A stretch of 52,058 nucleotides of DNA from Oscillospiraceae bacterium. GTDB lineage: Bacteria; Bacillota; Clostridia; Oscillospirales; Oscillospiraceae. Made by a program: the position numbers and the translations under genes. Below the pieces are notes generated by a model. That model saw nothing but the letters and a program-made list of their open reading frames with translations. It was not told the DNA's origin and made no database searches. Where the stretch lies: assembly GCA_017397565.1 (NCBI GenBank), contig JAFQIL010000014.1, positions 1-52,058 of the forward strand. The letters run 5' to 3'. Below, in pieces: positions 4,579 to 12,705 of the stretch. How positions within the stretch are numbered: position 1 is the stretch's first letter; each line of letters opens with the position of its first letter.

Positions 4579-5046
4579 GTGACCATTCGTTTTGCCACCC
4601 GGGAGGATATTCCCGGGATGATCAAGCTGTTAAAGCAGGTAGGCGGTGTCCACCATGACATTCGCCCGGACCTGTTTCGCGGCGATGCCCAAAAGTATGA
4701 TGCCCCGGCGCTGGAAGCTCTGCTGGAAGACAAAAACCGCCCCATTTTGATCGCCGGGGATACCCAAGTTATGGGCTATGCCTTCTGCATTCTCAGGAAT
4801 GTAGAGAACGACAGCGTGCTTTGTGACCGACGGGAGCTTTACATCGATGACCTGTGCGTGGATGAAAGCTGCCGGGGTCAGGGTATCGCCACCGCTCTTT
4901 ATCAGGAAGTTTTAGCGCTTGCCCGGAAGCGTCATTGCCAGACTGTGACATTGAATGTCTGGTGCGGCAATGACAGTGCTATGGCTTTTTATGAAAAGAT
5001 GGGCATGAAGCCTCAAAAAATCGGCATGGAGGTCAGCGTATGCTGA
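4579..5046 (+). CDS. GNAT-family N-acetyltransferase
   Basis: The product is 155 residues with a full GNAT fold. The acetyl-CoA loop is visible as CRGQGIATALYQEVLALA after LYIDDLCVDESC, and the C-terminal part has NVWCGNDSAMAFYEKMGMKP. The family moves an acetyl group from acetyl-CoA to an amine; the substrate cannot be read here. I chose GTG at 4579, which has GAGG 8 bases upstream. Longer in-frame extensions from 4426 are translated repeat DNA. It overlaps the start of rlmD by 7 bases, so the two are cotranscribed. Confidence 0.85.
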   Translation: MTIRFATREDIPGMIKLLKQVGGVHHDIRPDLFRGDAQKYDAPALEALLEDKNRPILIAGDTQVMGYAFCILRNVENDSVLCDRRELYIDDLCVDESCRGQGIATALYQEVLALARKRHCQTVTLNVWCGNDSAMAFYEKMGMKPQKIGMEVSVC

Positions 5047-6662
5047 TAAAAAATCAAATTTACGAAGCCACCGTCACAGACTATACCGCTGAGGGGCAAG
5101 GGGTTGCCCATGTGGAAGGCTGTGCGGTGTTTTTGCCTAATGCCATCGCCGGGGAGAGATATCGCATCCGGATTGAGAAGGCGCAGAAGACTTGGGCGGC
5201 GGGTAAGATCGTGGAGATTTTGGAAAAATCCCCTCACCGCATCAACCGGGAATGTCCCGTTGCCAAGCTTTGCGGCGGCTGTGACTTCTGGCATATGGAC
5301 TATGAGGAAGAATCCCGGCTGAAAGCGACCCGGGTGCGGGACTGCTTAAACCGCATCGGCGGCGAGAATTTGGAGAATGTTCCCATTTTGTCCGCCTCTA
5401 CCTGCTACGGCTATCGCAATAAAGCCCAGTATCCCGTAGCTGCCCAAAAGGGCAGAGCCTACGCAGGCTTCTTCCGGGCAGGCACCCATAGCGTGGTGGA
5501 AAATGACCGCTGCCTGATTCTGCCTCAGGAAACCGACCGGGTCAAGGCAGCTGTGATGGATTATGTAAACCAATATCGGATCACCGTCTACGATGAACTG
5601 GCCCATAAGGGGCTTTTGCGGCACATATATGTTCGCCGCGGTGCCGTTTCCGGGCAGATTTTGGTGTGCCTTGCGGTAAACGGGAGAAGTCTGCCTCATG
5701 TTCCGGAGCTGATTTCCCGCTTGCAGAAGCTCCCCGGCTTTACTACATTGGTGCTTTCCGTGAATACCAAAAAGGGCAACGCGGTGCTGGGGGATGAATT
5801 TATCACCCTCTATGGCCCCGGCTATATCGAGGATACCCTTTGCGGACTGAATTTTCGGCTGTCTCCCCGGTCTTTTTACCAGGTGAATCACCATCAGGCC
5901 CAGCGGCTCTATGAAGCTGCCATTTCTCAGGCGGAGATCACCAAAGACGATACGGTTCTGGATCTTTACTGCGGCGTGGGTACCATTACCCTGGCTATGG
6001 CGAAGGCCGCCGGCAAGGTCATCGGCATTGAGGTGATCCCTCAGGCAGTAGAGGATGCCCGGGATAACGCCAGACGCAACTGCATCGAAAACGCGGAGTT
6101 TTTCTGCGGTGATGCCGGACAGGCGGCGCTGGCGCTGGAACAACAGGGGGTCAAGGCGGATGTGGTGGTTGTCGACCCGCCCCGGAAGGGCTTGAATGCC
6201 GATGCCATCGAAGCCCTCGACCGGTTTGCTCCCCGGCGGATCGTCTATGTATCCTGCGACCCGGCAACCCTGGCAAGAGATGTGGCGCTTTTGAAAGAAA
6301 AGGGATATACCTTAAAAAATGCCATGGCGGCAGATCTGTTCCCCCGCTGCAGCCATGTAGAGACGATAGTGTGTTTGTCCAAACTCGCAGATACCCACAT
6401 CGAAATGGAGATTGACCCCGAGGAACTGAACACCATCACCGCAAAAGTCTCTCCCACATATCCCGAGATAAAGGCGCATGTTTTAGAACATCACGGCTTA
6501 AAGGTCTCAAGCCTTGCCATTGCCCAAACCAAAAAGAAATGTGGCTTGGAAGTTGGCGAGTGCTACAATCTCCCCTCGGGACACGGCAGACCGCCCACAA
6601 ACTTAACCCCCGAACGGGAAGCAGCCATTCGGGAAGCATTCCAATATTACGGACTTATATGA
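5040..6662 (+). CDS. rlmD: 23S rRNA (uracil-1939-C5)-methyltransferase with element-derived C-terminal tail
   Basis: The product is 540 residues; the family is usually near 440-460. A TRAM-like N-terminus (1-60), iron-sulfur cysteines Cys72, Cys78 and Cys81 (CPVAKLCGGC), the SAM site LDLYCGVGTITLA and the catalytic segment VYVSCDPATLARD are all present. It should methylate U1939-type positions of 23S rRNA from SAM. The normal family end, CSHVETIV..LS, falls at residues 437-447. About 98 more residues follow (from SKLADTHIEMEID to the C-terminus QYYGLI), including GLKVSSLAIAQ and a proline-rich stretch. I read this tail as supplied by the integrated element. A GGAGG site precedes the ATG. Confidence 0.93.
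   Translation: MLIKNQIYEATVTDYTAEGQGVAHVEGCAVFLPNAIAGERYRIRIEKAQKTWAAGKIVEILEKSPHRINRECPVAKLCGGCDFWHMDYEEESRLKATRVRDCLNRIGGENLENVPILSASTCYGYRNKAQYPVAAQKGRAYAGFFRAGTHSVVENDRCLILPQETDRVKAAVMDYVNQYRITVYDELAHKGLLRHIYVRRGAVSGQILVCLAVNGRSLPHVPELISRLQKLPGFTTLVLSVNTKKGNAVLGDEFITLYGPGYIEDTLCGLNFRLSPRSFYQVNHHQAQRLYEAAISQAEITKDDTVLDLYCGVGTITLAMAKAAGKVIGIEVIPQAVEDARDNARRNCIENAEFFCGDAGQAALALEQQGVKADVVVVDPPRKGLNADAIEALDRFAPRRIVYVSCDPATLARDVALLKEKGYTLKNAMAADLFPRCSHVETIVCLSKLADTHIEMEIDPEELNTITAKVSPTYPEIKAHVLEHHGLKVSSLAIAQTKKKCGLEVGECYNLPSGHGRPPTNLTPEREAAIREAFQYYGLI
6357..6383 (+). other. Candidate left attachment site in rlmD
   Basis: The codons encode V-E-T-I-V-C-L-S-K in the rlmD frame. The same peptide pattern recurs at 11349 (VESIVCLSR) and 12670 (VESIVCLTN). 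Serine integrases need only a very short identical core, so the weak base-level match (shared GT.GA....AT.GT.TGT) is compatible with attL/attR. The crossover bases cannot be fixed by eye. Confidence 0.55.
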
Positions 6663-6664
6663 GA

Positions 6665-6693
6665 AGACGGCACCCGTGATGGGTGCCGTCTTT
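6665..6693 (+). terminator. Terminator after rlmD tail
   Basis: The hairpin GACGGCACCC-GTGAT-GGGTGCCGTC is followed by TTT. The 9-bp stem is the same as in the terminator at 12840. Confidence 0.8.
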
Positions 6694-6721
6694 ATCTGTT
6701 CGACATATTGGAATATGGACC

Positions 6722-6904
6722 TTAAAATTCATTCTTTTTAAGAATAAAAAAGAGAGCAACCACTTGAGCAATTATGCCAATGGCGATAATGATGCGAAAT
6801 ACAGTAATTGAAACAAGCTCAAAACCATTGCAAAAAAGCCCTACACACAGAATCAGTGTTCCTATAATGCTAATAAGCTGACCGATACTCACTTTTCTTT
6901 TCAT
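6722..6904 (-). CDS. Small two-helix membrane protein
   Basis: The predicted product is 60 residues with two hydrophobic helices (SIIGTLILCVGLF and VFRIIIAIGIIAQVVALFFIL) and a charged KKNEF end. I chose the ATG at 6904, which follows AAAGGAAG; an upstream in-frame TTG at 6931 is possible. I do not recognise a family. It lies downstream of the zinc-ribbon gene on the same strand, and base composition is more AT-rich than in the flanking chromosome, as expected for element DNA. Confidence 0.5.
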   Translation of the reverse strand: MKRKVSIGQLISIIGTLILCVGLFCNGFELVSITVFRIIIAIGIIAQVVALFFILKKNEF

Positions 6905-6937
6905 TCTATCAGTTCTTCCTTTCAAATTCAAGTCTGC

Positions 6938-7183
6938 CTAATCGCAATCCACCACAATCATATTACAATCTTTACACCCATAGCAAGCCGATACTTGATT
7001 AACTTTGCTATTTGCCTTAATAATCATTCCGCCCTCGTTTTCAACGGTTTTCTTTGTATGATTATATGGAAAAACCCAATGTTTATCTATAAAAGACTGT
7101 GGTAGCCAATAAAAGGTCGTATCACCGCGATGATTGGCAATCTCTCCCAATGTCATATCTTTTCCACATTTAGGACACTTCAT
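6938..7183 (-). CDS. Small zinc-ribbon protein (DUF6487-like)
   Basis: The product is 81 residues with two CxxC pairs, MKCPKCGKDM at the start and CYGCKDCNMIVVDCD at the end, which would form one zinc ribbon around an aromatic middle (FYWLPQSF). This pattern matches small proteins annotated as DUF6487 / PF20097-like; the function is unknown. The ATG at 7183 has a GGAGG site. It begins the two-gene minus-strand unit at the left end of the element, pointing towards the rlmD junction. Confidence 0.72.
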   Translation of the reverse strand: MKCPKCGKDMTLGEIANHRGDTTFYWLPQSFIDKHWVFPYNHTKKTVENEGGMIIKANSKVNQVSACYGCKDCNMIVVDCD

Positions 7184-7273
7184 TTTCGTTCCTCCGTCAA
7201 ATTCAAGTTTATCGGTGAGTTCATTTTACCACCCATCAACCCGAAAATCAATGGTCTGTTATTCTCATGTTCT

Positions 7274-7363
7274 ATATTACTTTTGAAAACAAAAGTAATA
7301 TTGGGGTTGCAAGGGAACGCCCTGCCCCATGAACAAAGCACAGCTTTGTCTAGTGGGTTAGAC
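7274..7363 (+). other. MobV-type origin of transfer (oriT)
   Basis: Two inverted repeats lie upstream of the relaxase gene. The first has 12-bp arms (ATATTACTTTTG, loop AAAA, complement to 7301). The second, at 7348-7363, reads GTCTA-GTGGGT-TAGAC followed by TTT. It closely matches the pMV158-type Pre/Mob recognition site, in which TAGTGTG/TTA is nicked between G and T; here the equivalent is TAGTGGG/TTA at 7351-7360. A CAAAGC-ACA-GCTTTG hairpin precedes it. Confidence 0.75.
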
Positions 7364-7585
7364 TTTCCTCGGGGCTGTGAAACCCGAGCGAAGTCGCAGC
7401 AGCCGCAATGCGCCCATTGGCGTGTGTTGCGGCAAGGCGGCTGAGCGAGGGTCAGTGAAGCCTACAAATAAGCTCTGCGCCTAACGACAGGGGGCAGGCT
7501 TGTTTGTAGGCAGAACGGCGAACAGGAACGGGAAAGGCTTACCCACGGCGTTGCTCCTGCAATCCCAAAGGAAAGGAGATACCCT

Positions 7586-8560
7586 ATGGCTTATTGTATT
7601 ATGCGTGTAGAAAAGAGAAAACGGGCGGCTCTGTATGGCTTGCAGATTGAAGCGAACCGCACCACGGCAGACCACGAAAAAGGGCGGGATTTTACCGCCA
7701 GCGACATTCAATGGTGCTTGACTGATTTTAATATGTATTTAGTCAAGTCTGAAAACTGGAATAAAGCCGTTACGGCTGCATTCAAAGAAGCGGAAATACA
7801 GGAACGGAAGAACAGTGTTGTGGTGCTTGACGGATTCTATGGAGCAACCCCCGACTGGTTCAAGGACAAAAATATAGATGAAATCGTCAGCTATTTCAAG
7901 GATTGCTTGGCTTTCCACGAGCAGACCTATGGCAAGGTCATCAATGCTGTGATTCATTTCGATGAAGCAACACCCCATCTGACTTGCCAATCTTTGCCGT
8001 TGATAGAGGGAGAGGACGGGCGCACTCGTCTGTCCGCCCGTGACATTATGGGCGGCAGAAATGACTACCGCCGCCGTCAAGACGAGTTTTATGAGCAAGT
8101 GGGCAAGCCAAGAGGACTTGAGCGTGGTGAAGTCCACGACCCCGAACATACCCGAAAGCACCTCTCTGTACAAGCCTACAAGAACGAACAGCTTGAAATT
8201 GAGAACGAGCAGCTTCGCAAGCAGAGCAAGGAGCTACAGAAAGAATGTAGAACGCTACTTTTGAAGAATCAGCAACTCCAAGATATAAATGAAGCTCTTG
8301 CCCAACAAGTGGAGCAGCCGTTTTTGACTTACTGCATGATGGAGTTTATCCGTAATGCAAAGGTCAGAGGCGAACGGGGAGAAATCAAGCTGGTGGTTGA
8401 TGGCTTCCAAACATATCTCGCTCGCAACCAAGAACAACTCCGTGCCAAGTGGGAGCAGCAGTTACTACCCAACTACTACCCTCCACTTGAGCAAGAGGAG
8501 GAGCGCTTCCGTGAACGAGAGTACGACTACGAGCAAGATTATGATGACAGGGAGCGTTAA
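7586..8560 (+). CDS. MobV/Pre-family relaxase
   Basis: The product is 324 residues. The relaxase motif HFDEATPH (His124) is the MobV motif III that binds metal and nicks oriT; the N-terminal MAYCIMRVEKRKR and the later EHTRKHLSVQAYKNEQ linker into a long coiled coil (about 190-235) are also typical. It should nick the site at 7351-7360 and pilot the strand into a recipient using a helper conjugation system. AAGGAG lies before the ATG at 7586. The C-terminus is acidic and charged. It is followed at once by a strong terminator. Confidence 0.88.
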   Translation: MAYCIMRVEKRKRAALYGLQIEANRTTADHEKGRDFTASDIQWCLTDFNMYLVKSENWNKAVTAAFKEAEIQERKNSVVVLDGFYGATPDWFKDKNIDEIVSYFKDCLAFHEQTYGKVINAVIHFDEATPHLTCQSLPLIEGEDGRTRLSARDIMGGRNDYRRRQDEFYEQVGKPRGLERGEVHDPEHTRKHLSVQAYKNEQLEIENEQLRKQSKELQKECRTLLLKNQQLQDINEALAQQVEQPFLTYCMMEFIRNAKVRGERGEIKLVVDGFQTYLARNQEQLRAKWEQQLLPNYYPPLEQEEERFREREYDYEQDYDDRER

Positions 8561-8565
8561 CAAAT

Positions 8566-8603
8566 AAGGACACGGGAAATCAATCCCGTGTCCTTTTCCT
8601 TTT
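8566..8603 (+). terminator. Terminator after relaxase gene
   Basis: AAGGACACGGG pairs with CCCGTGTCCTT around the loop AAATCAAT and is followed by TTCCTTTT. Confidence 0.85.
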
Positions 8604-8604
8604 G

Positions 8605-9465
8605 GGACATATATGTGGGTCGGCGGTGGGACACGAATGCGTCGCACAAAAAAACGGACGTGAACCGTTTTTGCATCCCAAACGTTCACGTCCTATGTAG
8701 GCAAACGGAGCAGAATGGACAGACTTATCCCTTTGAAAATTCAAAGGAATAAGTCCGCTACGTATAACACGTCCTAGAGGCGAGGTTTCCGTATGCATTT
8801 TTCTTTGCCACCCTGACTTGTCAATCCATTGCCTGATTGACGAACCATTTACGCATCTGCTCTGCGTGTTAACAGGTTCATCCCTGCACCGAAACATAAT
8901 TGTGCTATGCGTGTGCTATCCTTCGCTATTACCCAACCTCTTAAACATGATTACTCAACGGCATCTCATATTTTTCACAATGGGGCACCGAACTGCGCTG
9001 ATTTAAGCTAACAATCCGTAAGCTAGCAGCCATTATCTGCCACTGTCTATTCTTTTACTTGCTCACCAGTATTCTTCGCAAAATAAACGATAATCAAGCA
9101 ACCAAACTTGTAGGGACACAGGGTGGAGTGCCCCACTCGCTTCACATTTTTTTCGGAGTGGTCGGTAGACCTGCAATTTTTAAAGAGATTTGCTCCAAAA
9201 CTCTCTATGATTCAGTTGTGTGCCTTGGGTTGCTTTAATGATGCAGCCAGCGAAAGCCAACCGCTAAATAAGTCAGTCTAAATATTATCAATAAGTCAAT
9301 CACACCAGTTAAGGTCATCCGTTGGCTGCACCATTCCAAGGCTTAAATAAAATAGACGATAAAAAATGCCGCTTTTGACAATCTTTTAGTCTGCCCTCCC
9401 TCTGGGGGCGATTTCTTCTATCTTAGGTTTACATAACATTTTAAGAAGAAGATAGGAGATTGACT
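8605..9465. other. Hairpin-rich non-coding stretch between relaxase and recombinase
   Basis: There is no convincing gene. It contains a 10-bp inverted repeat GGACGTGAAC/GTTCACGTCC (8656-8693) that overlaps an alternative hairpin AAAACGG/CCGTTTT (8651-8671). A near-perfect 16-bp-arm palindrome lies at 8722-8755 (GACTTATCCCTTTGAA arm), and a two-stem structure at 9222-9342. The sequence is AT-rich and has short decayed reading frames only. Confidence 0.6.
9222..9342 (+). ncRNA. Possible structured RNA
   Basis: Two nested stems close this stretch: GCCTTGG (9222-9228) with CCAAGGC (9336-9342), and TGCAGCCA (9242-9249) with TGGCTGCA (9323-9330). The interior has AT-rich loops. It may be a structured RNA or a decayed intron or element remnant. 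I do not recognise a family. Confidence 0.25.
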
Positions 9466-9681
9466 ATGAAAGTACATACTGAAATCATCGGCGGCGGCAA
9501 CGCCTACACCTTTAACGGATTTCTGCACACCTTGACCGACCTCATTGCCAAATACGAAGCCGAGTTCGAAGAACTGGCTCATACCGAAAACGGAAACGCA
9601 CCGAGCGTTTCCGTTTTTTGCTTGCTTTTTGGGATAACTGGAGTTATGATAATATCAAAGTTTGGACAATGCACAACTTAA
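9466..9681 (+). CDS. Short hypothetical reading frame interrupted by a terminator hairpin
   Basis: The reading frame of 71 residues starts MKVHTEIIGGGNAYTFNG after a good AGGAG site. The hairpin and T-run at 9587-9619 and a promoter at 9622-9650 lie inside its 3' third. The translated C-terminal part is therefore probably not meaningful, and the frame may be a truncated remnant of a longer gene or a leader for the recombinase. No family is recognised. The codons before the hairpin (about 40) look ordinary and hydrophilic (LTDLIAKYEAEFEELAH). Confidence 0.4.
   Translation: MKVHTEIIGGGNAYTFNGFLHTLTDLIAKYEAEFEELAHTENGNAPSVSVFCLLFGITGVMIISKFGQCTT
9587..9619 (+). terminator. Terminator upstream of the recombinase gene
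   Basis: AAAACGGAAACGC pairs perfectly with GCGTTTCCGTTTT around ACCGA and is followed by further T residues. It lies inside the preceding short reading frame. Confidence 0.8.
9622..9650 (+). promoter_or_regulatory. Promoter of the serine recombinase gene
   Basis: TTGCTT and TATGAT are separated by 17 bases and lie immediately after the terminator, 51 bases before the recombinase start. Confidence 0.55.
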
Positions 9682-9701
9682 ACAGAAAGGAAGCGGCACA
9701 A

Positions 9702-11441
9702 ATGGAGAAAAAGAAGGCTTACATATACACCCGAGTGTCAACCGCTATGCAGGTCGATGGCTACAGCTTGGAAGCACAGGAAGAACGGCTGCGGCGGCAT
9801 TGCGAATATCACGATATGGAAATCGTCCGCACATACACCGACAAGGGAAAATCTGGCTCAACAATCGTGGGAAGAGAGCAGTTTCAGCAAATGCTCAATG
9901 ATATAGAGAGTCAAAAAGACGGCGTTTCCTATGTCCTCGTCTATAAGCTTAGTCGGTTTGGACGAAATGCGTATGATATTCACGGGTCTCTGCGTATCCT
10001 TACGGAAAACAATGTCTATTTGGTGGCAGTAGAGGACGGCATCGACACAAGTACCAAGATGGGCGAGACTTTTGCCCTCATCATGGCGGCACTGGCACAG
10101 GCAGAGCTTTCCAATATCCACGAGCAGACCTTTTTGGGTCGGCAGCAGAAAGCAAGAGAGGGCAAGTGGAACGGCGGTATGTCCCCCTTGGGGTATCAGC
10201 TGGTCGATGGCAAGCTAATTATCGACGAAGCAGAAGCTGCAATCGTCCGCCGCATCTTTGACTTATACACCCAAGAACGCCCGCTCGGCATTGCTGGCGT
10301 TGTCAAGCAACTGCTGAAGGAAGAGGTCAAGCGACCCCCTCGCCAAAACCGCACCTATGGGCAAATTGGCCGCAAATTGGTTTCTGATGTGTTGGAAAAT
10401 CCCATTTACACAGGACAGATAGCCTACGGACGGCGGCATATGGAAAAGGCAGACCGCAAGGGCAACCGAAAAGTGGTAAATCAACAGGAATATATCCTTG
10501 TTCAAGGCGAACACACGCCCATCATATCCTTGGAGCAGTTCCAAGCTGCCCAAGAACTGCGGAAAGGGCGGAGCAATATGTGCGAACGCCGCCCCGACAA
10601 TGACTATGTACATCTGCTGTCCCCGATGCTGCGTTGTCCCGAGTGCGGAGCTTCTATGTACGGAAACACCACACGGAAGAGGAAAAAGACCGCAAGCGGA
10701 GAGTTTTATGCTGATTACCATTTCTATGCCTGCAAGCATCGGCGGAGCATTGAGGGAAAAACCTGCACCTACAAAAAGAACTGGAACAACAAAGATATAG
10801 ACGGCCCTGTAGTGGAAATCGTCACCCAACTAATCAATGACCCAAAACTGGCTGACTATATCCGCTCCAAGCTGACCAGTGTGGTGGATGCGGAAACTGT
10901 GGAAGCTGATATTGCCAAGTTAGAAAAAGCGCTGAAACGAACACAGGCAAATAAAAGGGAACGCTATAAAGAACTGGATGATTTAGACCCCTCCGACCCT
11001 GTCGACAGCGTTAAAATTCGAGATACCAAGGCAAGCATTGACAATCTGTCTGTTAAGGAAGTAGAATATAGGCAAGACTTGGCGGAGCTTCGCAACAAGC
11101 TCGTTGCGGTGAAGCAAAACCAACTGACTAAGGAGACCGTTCTCAAGGTGCTGAGCCACTTCTCCCTGTTCTTTGATAGAATGACACCTGCTGACAAACA
11201 GGTGCTGCTGCGGTCTCTCGTTGAGGAAATTCAAATCTTCCCCGAGAAAACCGAGGACGGCAGAATTATCAAGAGCATAAAGCTGTGTGTACCTGTGGTC
11301 TATGAGAACGAAAACACCCCCAAAATCAGTTGGGACAAATTGACCCCCGTCGAGAGTATTGTTTGTTTGAGTAGGGAAAAGGCCGACGATTATATCCGTA
11401 TTTCTGTTCATACCGAGGATTTGCAAACCAAGACGAACTAA
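9702..11441 (+). CDS. Large serine recombinase (integrase) of the element
   Basis: The product is 579 residues. The resolvase domain begins MEKKKAYIYTRVSTAMQ with catalytic Ser13 and continues with YVLVYKLSRFGRN and AQAELSNI. The recombinase domain (GGMSPLGYQLVDGKLII), a zinc ribbon from about residue 312 (CPECGASM ... CKHRRS) and a coiled coil (about 400-480) follow, as in large serine integrases that excise and insert elements without host ligase. I chose the ATG at 9702, after AAAGGAAG, over the upstream extension. The last 31 residues begin VESIVCLSREKADDYI and resemble the start of the foreign tail on RlmD (VETIVCLSKLADTHI). Confidence 0.92.
   Translation: MEKKKAYIYTRVSTAMQVDGYSLEAQEERLRRHCEYHDMEIVRTYTDKGKSGSTIVGREQFQQMLNDIESQKDGVSYVLVYKLSRFGRNAYDIHGSLRILTENNVYLVAVEDGIDTSTKMGETFALIMAALAQAELSNIHEQTFLGRQQKAREGKWNGGMSPLGYQLVDGKLIIDEAEAAIVRRIFDLYTQERPLGIAGVVKQLLKEEVKRPPRQNRTYGQIGRKLVSDVLENPIYTGQIAYGRRHMEKADRKGNRKVVNQQEYILVQGEHTPIISLEQFQAAQELRKGRSNMCERRPDNDYVHLLSPMLRCPECGASMYGNTTRKRKKTASGEFYADYHFYACKHRRSIEGKTCTYKKNWNNKDIDGPVVEIVTQLINDPKLADYIRSKLTSVVDAETVEADIAKLEKALKRTQANKRERYKELDDLDPSDPVDSVKIRDTKASIDNLSVKEVEYRQDLAELRNKLVAVKQNQLTKETVLKVLSHFSLFFDRMTPADKQVLLRSLVEEIQIFPEKTEDGRIIKSIKLCVPVVYENENTPKISWDKLTPVESIVCLSREKADDYIRISVHTEDLQTKTN
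11349..11375 (+). other. Attachment-like sequence inside the recombinase 3' end
   Basis: The codons read V-E-S-I-V-C-L-S-R, matching the rlmD junction at peptide level and sharing GAG, TGTTTG and other bases with it. It may mark an older insertion boundary, with the two cargo genes lying between this site and 12670. Confidence 0.45.
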
Positions 11442-11474: not shown

Positions 11475-11900
11475 ATGGAAAAATTGACAAAGGAAGTAGA
11501 CGCAATTTTGTTGGAACGATTCGGCAAGGATAGTATTATTGCTCTGGCAACTGCTATTGACAATATTCCTTATGTTCGCAGTGTGGATGCATTTTATGAG
11601 AACGGTGTCTTTTATGTACTTACCCATGGTTTGTCGAGTAAAATGAAACAAATAGAACAAAATCCTACTGTTGCACTATCTGGAGAATGGTTTACAGCCC
11701 AAGGCAAAGGGCTTAATTTAGGATACTTCGGGAAAGCAGATAATTTACATATCGCAAATAAAATGAAGCAAGTGTTTTCCACTTGGATTGATAACGGACA
11801 CAACAATTTTGATGACACAAACACTTGTATCCTTTGCATTAAACTAACCAATGGTATTCTGTTTTCAAATGGCACACGCTACGAAATAGACTTTACTTAA
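11475..11900 (+). CDS. Pyridoxamine 5'-phosphate oxidase-like (split beta-barrel) protein
   Basis: The product is 141 residues. The split-barrel pattern (IIALATAIDNIPYVRSVDAFYENGVFYVLTH, then KMKQIEQNPTVALSG) fits the FMN-binding PPOX-like superfamily. Such proteins reduce or bind flavins, heme or F420; true PdxH activity is unlikely at this size. The ATG at 11475 follows CGGAGG; the longer start at 11451 has no better site. It lies 33 bases after the recombinase gene and may be cotranscribed with it as element cargo. Confidence 0.72.
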   Translation: MEKLTKEVDAILLERFGKDSIIALATAIDNIPYVRSVDAFYENGVFYVLTHGLSSKMKQIEQNPTVALSGEWFTAQGKGLNLGYFGKADNLHIANKMKQVFSTWIDNGHNNFDDTNTCILCIKLTNGILFSNGTRYEIDFT

Positions 11901-11972
11901 GTCAATTCCAACATGTCGAACAATTTACCAACTTGAATTTACATAGCAGAGAATATGAAAGGCGGTATCATA

Positions 11973-12608
11973 ATGGTATATAGCTTTACTTCTATCATAC
12001 ATACCGAGGGAAATCGCACATTTATTGAAATACCTTTTAATGTATGGGAAGAAACAGGCTTAAAGGGAAACATCCCGTGCCGTATAGCCATCCAGAAATG
12101 TTCTTTTGAGTGTAAACTCATTCCGAAAGGGAGCGGTAGATATTTTATTCCTGTATCAAAGGGGTGTTTGTCTGTTCTTGCATTGAAGAAAGAATATGAA
12201 ATCGAAATGGAGCCAATAGCCGCCTTATCAAGAATCAACCATAACAGCCCATATTCCAAGGAGAATCCTGTCCGAAAAATTGATGGAATTATAACAATTC
12301 CCAGCCAAGACGGGTTGTGCGGACAGCACTGTGTTTCCATGCTTGCAGCTGTGCCGCTTCCAGATGTAGTTGGATTGATGGGAAAAGGGAAGGCATCCTG
12401 GTCAAAGATAATGGAAGCATTGGACTATTATGGAATATCCTACGCATCTAAGGCGGTTTATACCAAGGGCAATGCTTGCCCGCTGCCTGTGTGCTGTATC
12501 GTGAATAATGATAATAGATTTGTTCTCTGGTATAAGGGTTCCTTCTGCGGTGTGCAGGAGGTTGACCCAAAGAAAACAAAAAGTTATATTGAGATTTTCA
12601 CGGAATAA
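11973..12608 (+). CDS. DUF1905-like domain fused to a C39-like cysteine peptidase domain
   Basis: The predicted product is 211 residues from ATG 11973 (alternative ATG 11955). The N-terminal ~90 residues (FIEIPFNVWEETGLKGNIPC, KLIPKGSGRYFIPV) resemble DUF1905 barrels. The rest has QDGLCGQHCVSMLAAVPL, a C39-type Gln-x-x-x-Cys-Gly-x-x-Cys start, then SWSKIMEALDYYGISY and a later segment that could hold the His. C39 domains cut leader peptides or act in housekeeping proteolysis; the partner is unknown. It is the last gene before the right boundary and looks like element cargo. Confidence 0.65.
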   Translation: MVYSFTSIIHTEGNRTFIEIPFNVWEETGLKGNIPCRIAIQKCSFECKLIPKGSGRYFIPVSKGCLSVLALKKEYEIEMEPIAALSRINHNSPYSKENPVRKIDGIITIPSQDGLCGQHCVSMLAAVPLPDVVGLMGKGKASWSKIMEALDYYGISYASKAVYTKGNACPLPVCCIVNNDNRFVLWYKGSFCGVQEVDPKKTKSYIEIFTE

Positions 12609-12669
12609 TAGTACGACAAATTCCAATATATCAAACACTTTGGTAGACTCCCTACCTAAAGGGACAACT

Positions 12670-12705
12670 GTGGAATCAATCGTTTGTCTTACAAACGATT
12701 GATTC
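12670..12705 (+). other. Candidate right attachment site, 33-bp palindrome
   Basis: From 12673 to 12705 two perfect 15-base arms (GAATCAATCGTTTGT and its complement) surround CTT. Read in the frame matching rlmD, the site encodes V-E-S-I-V-C-L-T-N-D and a stop, which would give a normal-length RlmD end. It may be the displaced native 3' end of rlmD. Confidence 0.5.

Follow-up and report, generated by a model that had tools for sequence, protein, structure and literature searches.

Why should a housekeeping rRNA methyltransferase carry at its C-terminus a long extension that most of its relatives lack? The question is raised by RlmD of an Oscillospiraceae bacterium, encoded on contig JAFQIL010000014.1 (assembly GCA_017397565.1), whose 52,058 nt were analysed as one stretch and are called the window here. 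An earlier note, made from the sequence alone, had proposed that a neighbouring integrative element with a serine recombinase had replaced the end of this enzyme with a domain of its own, keeping the frame open. The comparisons described below identify the tail as the C-terminal domain of a large serine recombinase family. We consider it probable, from comparison of loci, that the domain comes from the element's own recombinase, that the attachment (att) site of the free element, attP, would lie in frame within the recombinase gene, and that landing would swap the 3' ends of that gene and of rlmD.

RlmD and the tail family

A single open frame (5040–6662) encodes RlmD and the in-frame tail, 540 aa in all. 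Because the RlmD/RumA model TIGR00479 (residues 17–441; 407.7 bits, cut-off 183.55; profile positions 3–432 of 432) and PF05958 (whose match stops at residue 448, profile position 356 of 357) both run to their ends, the enzyme is whole and the rest of the frame is extra; the tail model begins at residue 455 of the 555-aa stop-to-stop frame. We compared 30 RlmD loci of the genus, the window included (L and G numbers are our handles for loci and genomes). In 20 of them (19 complete, one cut by a contig end) the protein stops 5–10 residues past the Val-Glu (V-E) of the motif HVE. Seven match the tail model, five of them with a long tail, the window among these, and two (L026 and L038) as stumps; among the remainder one carries an ASCH domain, and L045 ends, and L046 is cut, 24 residues on. 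In 22 of the 30, rlmD is preceded by a GNAT gene. The long extra tail claimed by the earlier note is thus real. Relatives whose RlmD has a native end are without it, the same tail at an empty site not being seen in this comparison.

A profile built from seven tails (search threshold E ≤ 1e-5) was run on 394 genomes of the order and detected the family in 79 of them, with 94 places matched in all. We read 74 of these places, the other 20 all being partial matches: 56 are RlmD ends (L219 interrupted by a stop), five are ends of large serine recombinases and 13 are neither. On viral contigs the tail is borne by a serine recombinase in 43 of 53 loci (L117 with a stop inside the tail), by RlmD in one and by neither in nine. 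Searches of 50,697 phage and 72,556 plasmid records found it in 11 and in one, respectively, and the eight phage records read comprise three recombinase fusions, two RlmD fusions and three that are neither. In most places read the homologues sit at element ends. The earlier note is thus supported in that the tail comes from the element, that the frame stays open and that the tail recurs on RlmD and on serine recombinases elsewhere, and the spread through the order and the viral contigs bears out its remark on similar tails in other integrative elements of Clostridia.

The frequency of RlmD–tail fusions could be taken to mean that the tail is a normal, lineage-specific domain of RlmD, beside which a mobile element landed later. 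We regard this as highly improbable: 23 of the 30 genus loci have no match to the tail model (L046, one of these, being cut by a contig end), near-identical tails are found on recombinases, the window's own genome has two RlmDs with tails only 49% identical, and the explanation is contradicted by a native rlmD end displaced 6.3 kb downstream in the window. The second RlmD of that genome (L055; G000:C60:3429-5255), 78% identical to the first and with a tail of the same family, is either a paralogue or derives from a second strain in the bin.

Among 40 overlapping pairs of tails more than 80% identical, 38 gave a defined ratio of nonsynonymous to synonymous substitution (dN/dS), and in all of these it was 0–0.14. 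The window and L004 tails, both RlmD-borne, gave 0.11, and an RlmD-borne against a recombinase-borne tail (L073, L077) gave 0.05. Judged from these ratios, strong purifying selection acts on the tail, and because close pairs are so constrained and the family recurs in so many genomes, the tail is not a chance frame. The same values bear on a simpler account, in which the element merely needs to supply a working 3' end for rlmD and the long open tail is a by-product of keeping the frame. That native ends lie so close behind V-E, that the element's VETVVLLS resembles them, and that some RlmDs carry just a stump (L026, L038) or an internally deleted tail (L006) would suit such a filler; however, a short end would suffice for it, and both the low dN/dS and the 43 viral recombinases that bear the tail make it improbable.

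Predicted by itself, the tail forms three helices (residues 35–46, 52–61 and 85–98) in a model with a mean predicted local distance difference test score (pLDDT) of 66.3 and no significant fold match. Two of the helices lie close together and, in the model, look like a helix-turn-helix. In the RlmD of a roe-deer-gut genome (L006:6396-8165), the window's tail has an in-frame internal deletion that removes the first two helices. In the predicted structure of a full tailed recombinase, L110 (mean pLDDT 74.2, predicted template modelling score 0.34), the att codons (residue 549 on) fall within a stretch of pLDDT < 50 (533–581) ahead of the tail helices, and the att site therefore seems, in this model, to cut at a domain border. 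Comparison of the tail with Pfam, NCBIfam, PHROGs, PDB sequences and Foldseek gave nothing convincing: the best PHROG match is phrog_27283, a family of unknown function (E = 0.00088 for L119), and we build nothing on weak matches to ribosomal proteins eS24 (E = 0.0072) and L23 (E = 0.11). These two proteins belong to one superfamily. Nor does charge argue for DNA binding: across 34 tails the median net value is +1, or +4 when only the last 68 residues are counted.

Exchange of 3' ends between rlmD and recombinase genes

We examined 20 stretches at or downstream of tails. In six (L157, L160, L161, L166, L170 and L171) RlmD is tailed, and a related recombinase 13–16 kb on is tail-less and has an RlmD-like end, the ends being VETVCLLSKKP, VETAARLIREV, VETIVLLSKKDPSK, VETVILLSR, IETVVRLKQNK and DETVVLITRAGS. 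In three others (L158, L164 and L173, the continuation of L172) the recombinase is fully tailed, with a tail unlike that of RlmD, as expected of tandem elements; L159 retains a recombinase remnant with an RlmD-like end.

Pairs of recombinase genes in otherwise the same DNA place the exchange more closely. L072, which has the tail, and L157, which ends VETVCLLSKKP, are identical in 300 of 300 nt before V-E and agree in 24 of 60 from V-E on; L126 (tail), L153 and L156 are likewise identical over 300 nt and then agree in 25–26 of 60, and L109 (tail) matches L119, L120, L123 and L125 in 294 of 300 nt. Counted from GTCGA, the first ten bases of such pairs agree at 8–10 positions, the next ten at 5–9 and those beyond at chance level, which puts the crossover on the V-E codons or directly beside them. 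The sequence there is GTNGA at most sites; as the sites were located via the Glu codon, the exact crossover dinucleotide is not fixed. Nearly the same tail is found on both partners, RlmD of G000:C60 and a recombinase of G090 having tails 95% identical, with a dN/dS of 0.05. At the level of locus comparison, these data show a reciprocal exchange of 3' ends, with retention of the frame and conservation of the tail. The earlier note's idea that the element adds a domain of its own was therefore right as to origin, but the tail is not an independent domain: it is the C-terminal domain of a recombinase family, exchanged reciprocally, and leaves the recombinase tail-less after integration.

The window itself fits this scheme, with one complication. 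The earlier note had placed a single serine-recombinase element next to rlmD; the recombinase is present, but the locus, as we read its sequence, is filled by two elements in tandem, followed by the displaced native rlmD end (Table 1). There are three V-E sites, GTAGAGACG in rlmD (6357), GTCGAGAGT near the recombinase end (11349) and GTGGAATCA at 12670, with V-E in codon phase 0 in both rlmD and the recombinase gene. Positions 12670–12705 are recognized as the displaced end because they match the rlmD end of a relative, G029 (L040/L063), in 35 of 36 nt. The tail had been said to start at a shared motif VETIVCLS, and a shared att region is indeed read in both frames, but the junction of host and element DNA falls on the V-E codons (6357–6361), so that most of VETIVCLS is coded by the element.

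Table 1. Predicted features of the rlmD locus in the window
Feature	Position	Strand	Basis
rlmD (rumA), catalytic part, complete	5040..6380	+	TIGR00479, PF05958
attL core GTAGA (codons V-E), host/element junction of element 1	6357..6361	+	comparison with recombinase-side and untailed rlmD ends
Element-coded rlmD 3' end: remainder of VETIVCLS, 93-aa recombinase-type tail (6381–6659), stop (6660–6662)	6362..6662	+	
MobV relaxase, element 1	7586..8560	+	PF01076 3.5e-38; NF041497 105.1 bits, cut-off 100
Large serine recombinase, element 1; core to 11348, last 30 codons = short tail of element 2	9702..11441	+	
Middle att GTCGA: attR of element 1 = attL of element 2	11349..11353	+	codon phase 0 in recombinase
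PNPOx-like small protein, element 2 (weak)	11475..11900	+	PF01243 E = 4.4e-4, 21 bits, below cut-off 28.1
DUF1905-domain protein, element 2	11955..12608	+	PF08922 1.1e-9
Right end of element 2, reads LVDSLPKGTT, resembles a recombinase gene end	12643..12669	+	
attR and displaced native rlmD 3' end (VESIVCLTND, stop 12700–12702) and hairpin	12670..12705	+	

By domain content (Resolvase PF00239, 1.3e-36; Recombinase PF07508, 1.3e-17; zinc ribbon PF13408, 2.1e-9) the protein of element 1 is a large serine recombinase, and is predicted to act at the att sites named above. MobV relaxase and recombinase both lie within 6362–11352, and element 1 is a candidate integrative and mobilizable element (IME). 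Element 2 has the short tail and its two small genes, and no recombinase was found in it. The residues past the middle site, REKADDYIRISVHTEDLQTKTN, close the RlmD of G031 (L026/L048) in nearly identical form, and a mini-element of ∼590 bp in that genome has the same right end as element 2 (LVDSLPKGTTVESIVCL; 87.8% over 74 nt with L048 3363–3436). We infer that element 2 arrived first and that element 1 then entered the rlmD/short-tail junction, handing RlmD its own tail on landing, its recombinase acquiring the short one. The right-end sequence of element 2, GTAGACTCCCT, also occurs in G029 at L063:3445 and 4082, downstream of an untailed rlmD and with no V-E site, where the copies are perhaps remains of other elements. 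A near-exact match with a relative's rlmD end was found only for the window (G029). The recombinase end of G294 had been expected to equal the RlmD end of a sister species, but in the sisters read these residues vary and none matches it exactly.

Several observations weigh against the proposed exchange from an in-frame attP. The circular form was not seen: direct terminal repeats of 20–299 nt occurred in none of 28 whole contigs (57 loci were run, of which 29 are only contig parts and hence uninformative). The window's recombinase was never seen tailed, its only relative at E ≤ 1e-60 in 60 genomes being itself, and peptide patterns detected no relative on the viral contigs. Ten of the 20 stretches (L172 included) have no closely related recombinase, L167 having four distant ones, and in L072 a break further upstream splits the recombinase gene into two overlapping frames. 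Two fusions at an rlmD-like att site, L110 and L149, are each followed by another recombinase; they look like tandems and would thus show uptake of a tail rather than attP. Next to the full-length tail frame of pAPRE01 and of L112 is a distant recombinase whose own frame differs and ends 70 nt past V-E; the tail cannot therefore be a domain of that recombinase. Finally, the searches gave no significant match of the tail to a helix-turn-helix family or fold that would back its putative binding of DNA.

Two-recombinase modules and the possible role of the tail

In the mechanism that we propose, the excised circle would carry attP in frame inside the recombinase gene, in the flexible-linker codons between the core and the tail domain, with V-E read in the same codon phase as at the end of rlmD. 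Integration would swap the 3' ends: RlmD would gain VE-TVVLLSK and the tail, and should stay whole because the first element-coded residues rebuild the end of its domain, and the recombinase would gain the short RlmD end, or any tail already parked there. It would be tailed before landing and tail-less after it, and excision would restore the ends of both genes. The tailed form would be the one that integrates, and loss of the tail on landing would alter its activity; the most likely consequence is that such a loss could serve as a built-in switch that reports the state of integration. Along with this switch, we infer the circular form itself, a tail on the window's recombinase when excised, activity of the tailed RlmD, and binding of DNA by the tail.

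The viral contigs add a second arrangement. Among their 43 recombinase fusions, ten have the tail at an rlmD-like VET/VES att site and 33 are of another kind. All 33 of the latter directly precede a second recombinase, with the provisos that they were found via the tail, so that tail-less relatives would be missed, and that many are near-copies and not independent; the second gene is broken in L136 and L144 and cut by a contig end in several. Where its end is readable, the second recombinase has various RlmD-like or other ends after V-E. Conversely, five of the ten att-type recombinases (L109, L114, L115, L117 and L126) are preceded by a first recombinase, which is tailed in all five, and these modules, found via the second gene, are free of the bias of tail selection. 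The modules (for example L109:6402-10315, L119:2293-5927 and L126:1682-5615) are two adjacent, partly overlapping genes, the first with a permanent tail and the second with an exchangeable end. The stop codon of the first gene and the start codon of the second share a four-base overlap in L109, L119 and L120, three of nine loci examined, and, if a GTG start is counted, also in L122. A tree was built from 39 recombinase cores, among them 17 of the 33, and in it one branch with support 99/100 separates the first kind from the second; the window's recombinase joins L171 by long branches, and its place is therefore unsure. In six of the 33 loci (L122, L125, L128, L132, L142 and L143) the contig breaks 7–38 nt past V-E, and the end of L154 likewise breaks near V-E, as if assemblies had split, or provirus borders had been trimmed, at the att site.

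Other ends also travel in this way. The RlmD of G027 (L022/L053) has an ASCH tail (Pfam ASCH, 2.2e-6) that is 68% identical over 122 aa to the tail of the second recombinase in viral L140:9735-11810, and ASCH is a second kind of tail at the same rlmD site; a further short end, SNRKPD...EDYYRIKD, is shared by the recombinases of L120 and L153. Tail-related open reading frames lie just behind the ends of transfer-messenger RNA (tmRNA) genes in L010 and L011 (near 7930–8267; ARAGORN, two of ten loci scanned) and just behind tRNA-like CCA ends in L008 and L014 (near 7900–8000), which are possibly another target of the same module; serine recombinases are nearby only in L014, L015 and L016. In L095:27-1487 (G222) the tail has an unrelated partner, a protein whose start resembles a signal peptide and to which it is joined in frame, and this suggests a secondary integration site.

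We tentatively suggest, as a possibility short of probable, that rlmD acts as a port for the exchange of tails, where each landing element would park its own recombinase's regulatory tail and, if the site is occupied, take that of the resident. The tailed form would integrate and the tail-less form would be the resident one, and in the two-gene modules the adjacent recombinase that retains its tail would supply it in trans, direction being set by which of the paralogues bears the domain. An alternative that we think rather unlikely makes the tail an integration-dependent effector, acting mainly when fused to RlmD or driven by the rlmD promoter, by repressing the element, marking the site as occupied or acting on the ribosome. 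It would explain why elements of the integrative and conjugative (ICE) type keep the tail as an open full-length frame though out of frame with the recombinase, and is in keeping with the related tails behind tmRNA or tRNA-like ends and with the appearance of ASCH in the same position on RlmD and on a recombinase. A promoter-capture version, in which the tail is silent until fused to RlmD, fits the out-of-frame elements but does not fit the in-frame recombinase fusions. Against the effector stands the first recombinase of the two-gene modules, which is tailed without sign of exchange (five of the five found via the second gene). The elements without a recombinase (element 2 of the window and that of G031) retain no more than a stump, which is what one would expect of a tail that serves the recombinase.

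Relation to known systems

What makes a large serine recombinase integrate or excise is a central question, and separate directionality factors are the usual answer. The loci described here provide natural matched pairs, one recombinase with and without its C-terminal domain, the difference being made by integration itself, and the role of the domain is therefore directly testable with natural sequences. The exchange also accounts for many odd long RlmD proteins in this order, and, for many recombinases, shows where the element ends and where its att sites lie, which is useful for genome-engineering tools.

By analogy, the nearest measured precedent for the putative switch would be the drop in activity of the phage Mx8 integrase after integration: attP lies inside its gene, and integration replaces a C-terminus of 112 residues with 13 residues, giving lower activity (Magrini et al., 1999, via PMC4701971). 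Our locus comparison likewise places attP within the integrase gene and finds the C-terminus altered by integration, the circle not being seen. Mx8, however, has a tyrosine integrase, and in the passage describing it no domain passes to an enzyme of the host (PMC4701971). Integration-dependent immunity is described for mycobacteriophage BPs (PMC4557955). There, as in the system proposed here, the att site lies in a coding gene and landing rewrites the C-terminus and function of a protein. In BPs this protein is reportedly the repressor, not the recombinase.

Associations with the same methyltransferase gene have been recorded several times. RlmD beside prophages was noted in Erysipelothrix (PMC12785378), and CTn5-like and CTn7 elements adjoin an RNA methyltransferase gene of Clostridium difficile (PMC3158075). 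For C. difficile CTn5, insertion into rumA was proven by PCR and fuses RumA to CD1844A, a similar C-terminus being noted on a RumA homologue of Enterococcus faecalis (van Eijk et al., 2015, PMC4320837). The section on this insertion mentions neither a recombinase domain nor gain or loss by a recombinase (PMC4320837).

The closest system is that of streptococcal ICEs and IMEs in rumA, which have a single serine integrase and exchange the 3' ends of rumA and the integrase gene reciprocally (Ambroset et al., 2016, PMC4701971; PMC5357655). The target gene is the same, as is the layout, with the att site in rumA at one end and in the serine integrase gene at the other, and the authors suggest that the two integrase forms may differ functionally (PMC4701971). 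In our loci, too, att sites lie in the 3' parts of rlmD and the recombinase gene and the ends are swapped. The streptococcal exchange, as reported there, changes the frame (PMC4701971), whereas V-E is in phase 0 in both genes of the window, the tails of our loci are read in frame on RlmD and on recombinases alike, and the exchange passes on a conserved domain of 93 aa. The frame shift of pAPRE01 and L112 agrees with the streptococcal type (PMC4701971); the ICE-type recombinases that we read are only 24–26% identical and distant in the tree. In the open-access literature searched, we met no account of a system in which a recombinase hands over a conserved domain in frame. As far as these accounts go, reciprocal exchange is already known from streptococci (PMC4701971) and the RumA hybrid from C. 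difficile (PMC4320837); what the present loci add is the in-frame hand-over of a conserved domain, the partner recombinase that keeps its tail, and the tentative view of rlmD as a port through which tails are exchanged.
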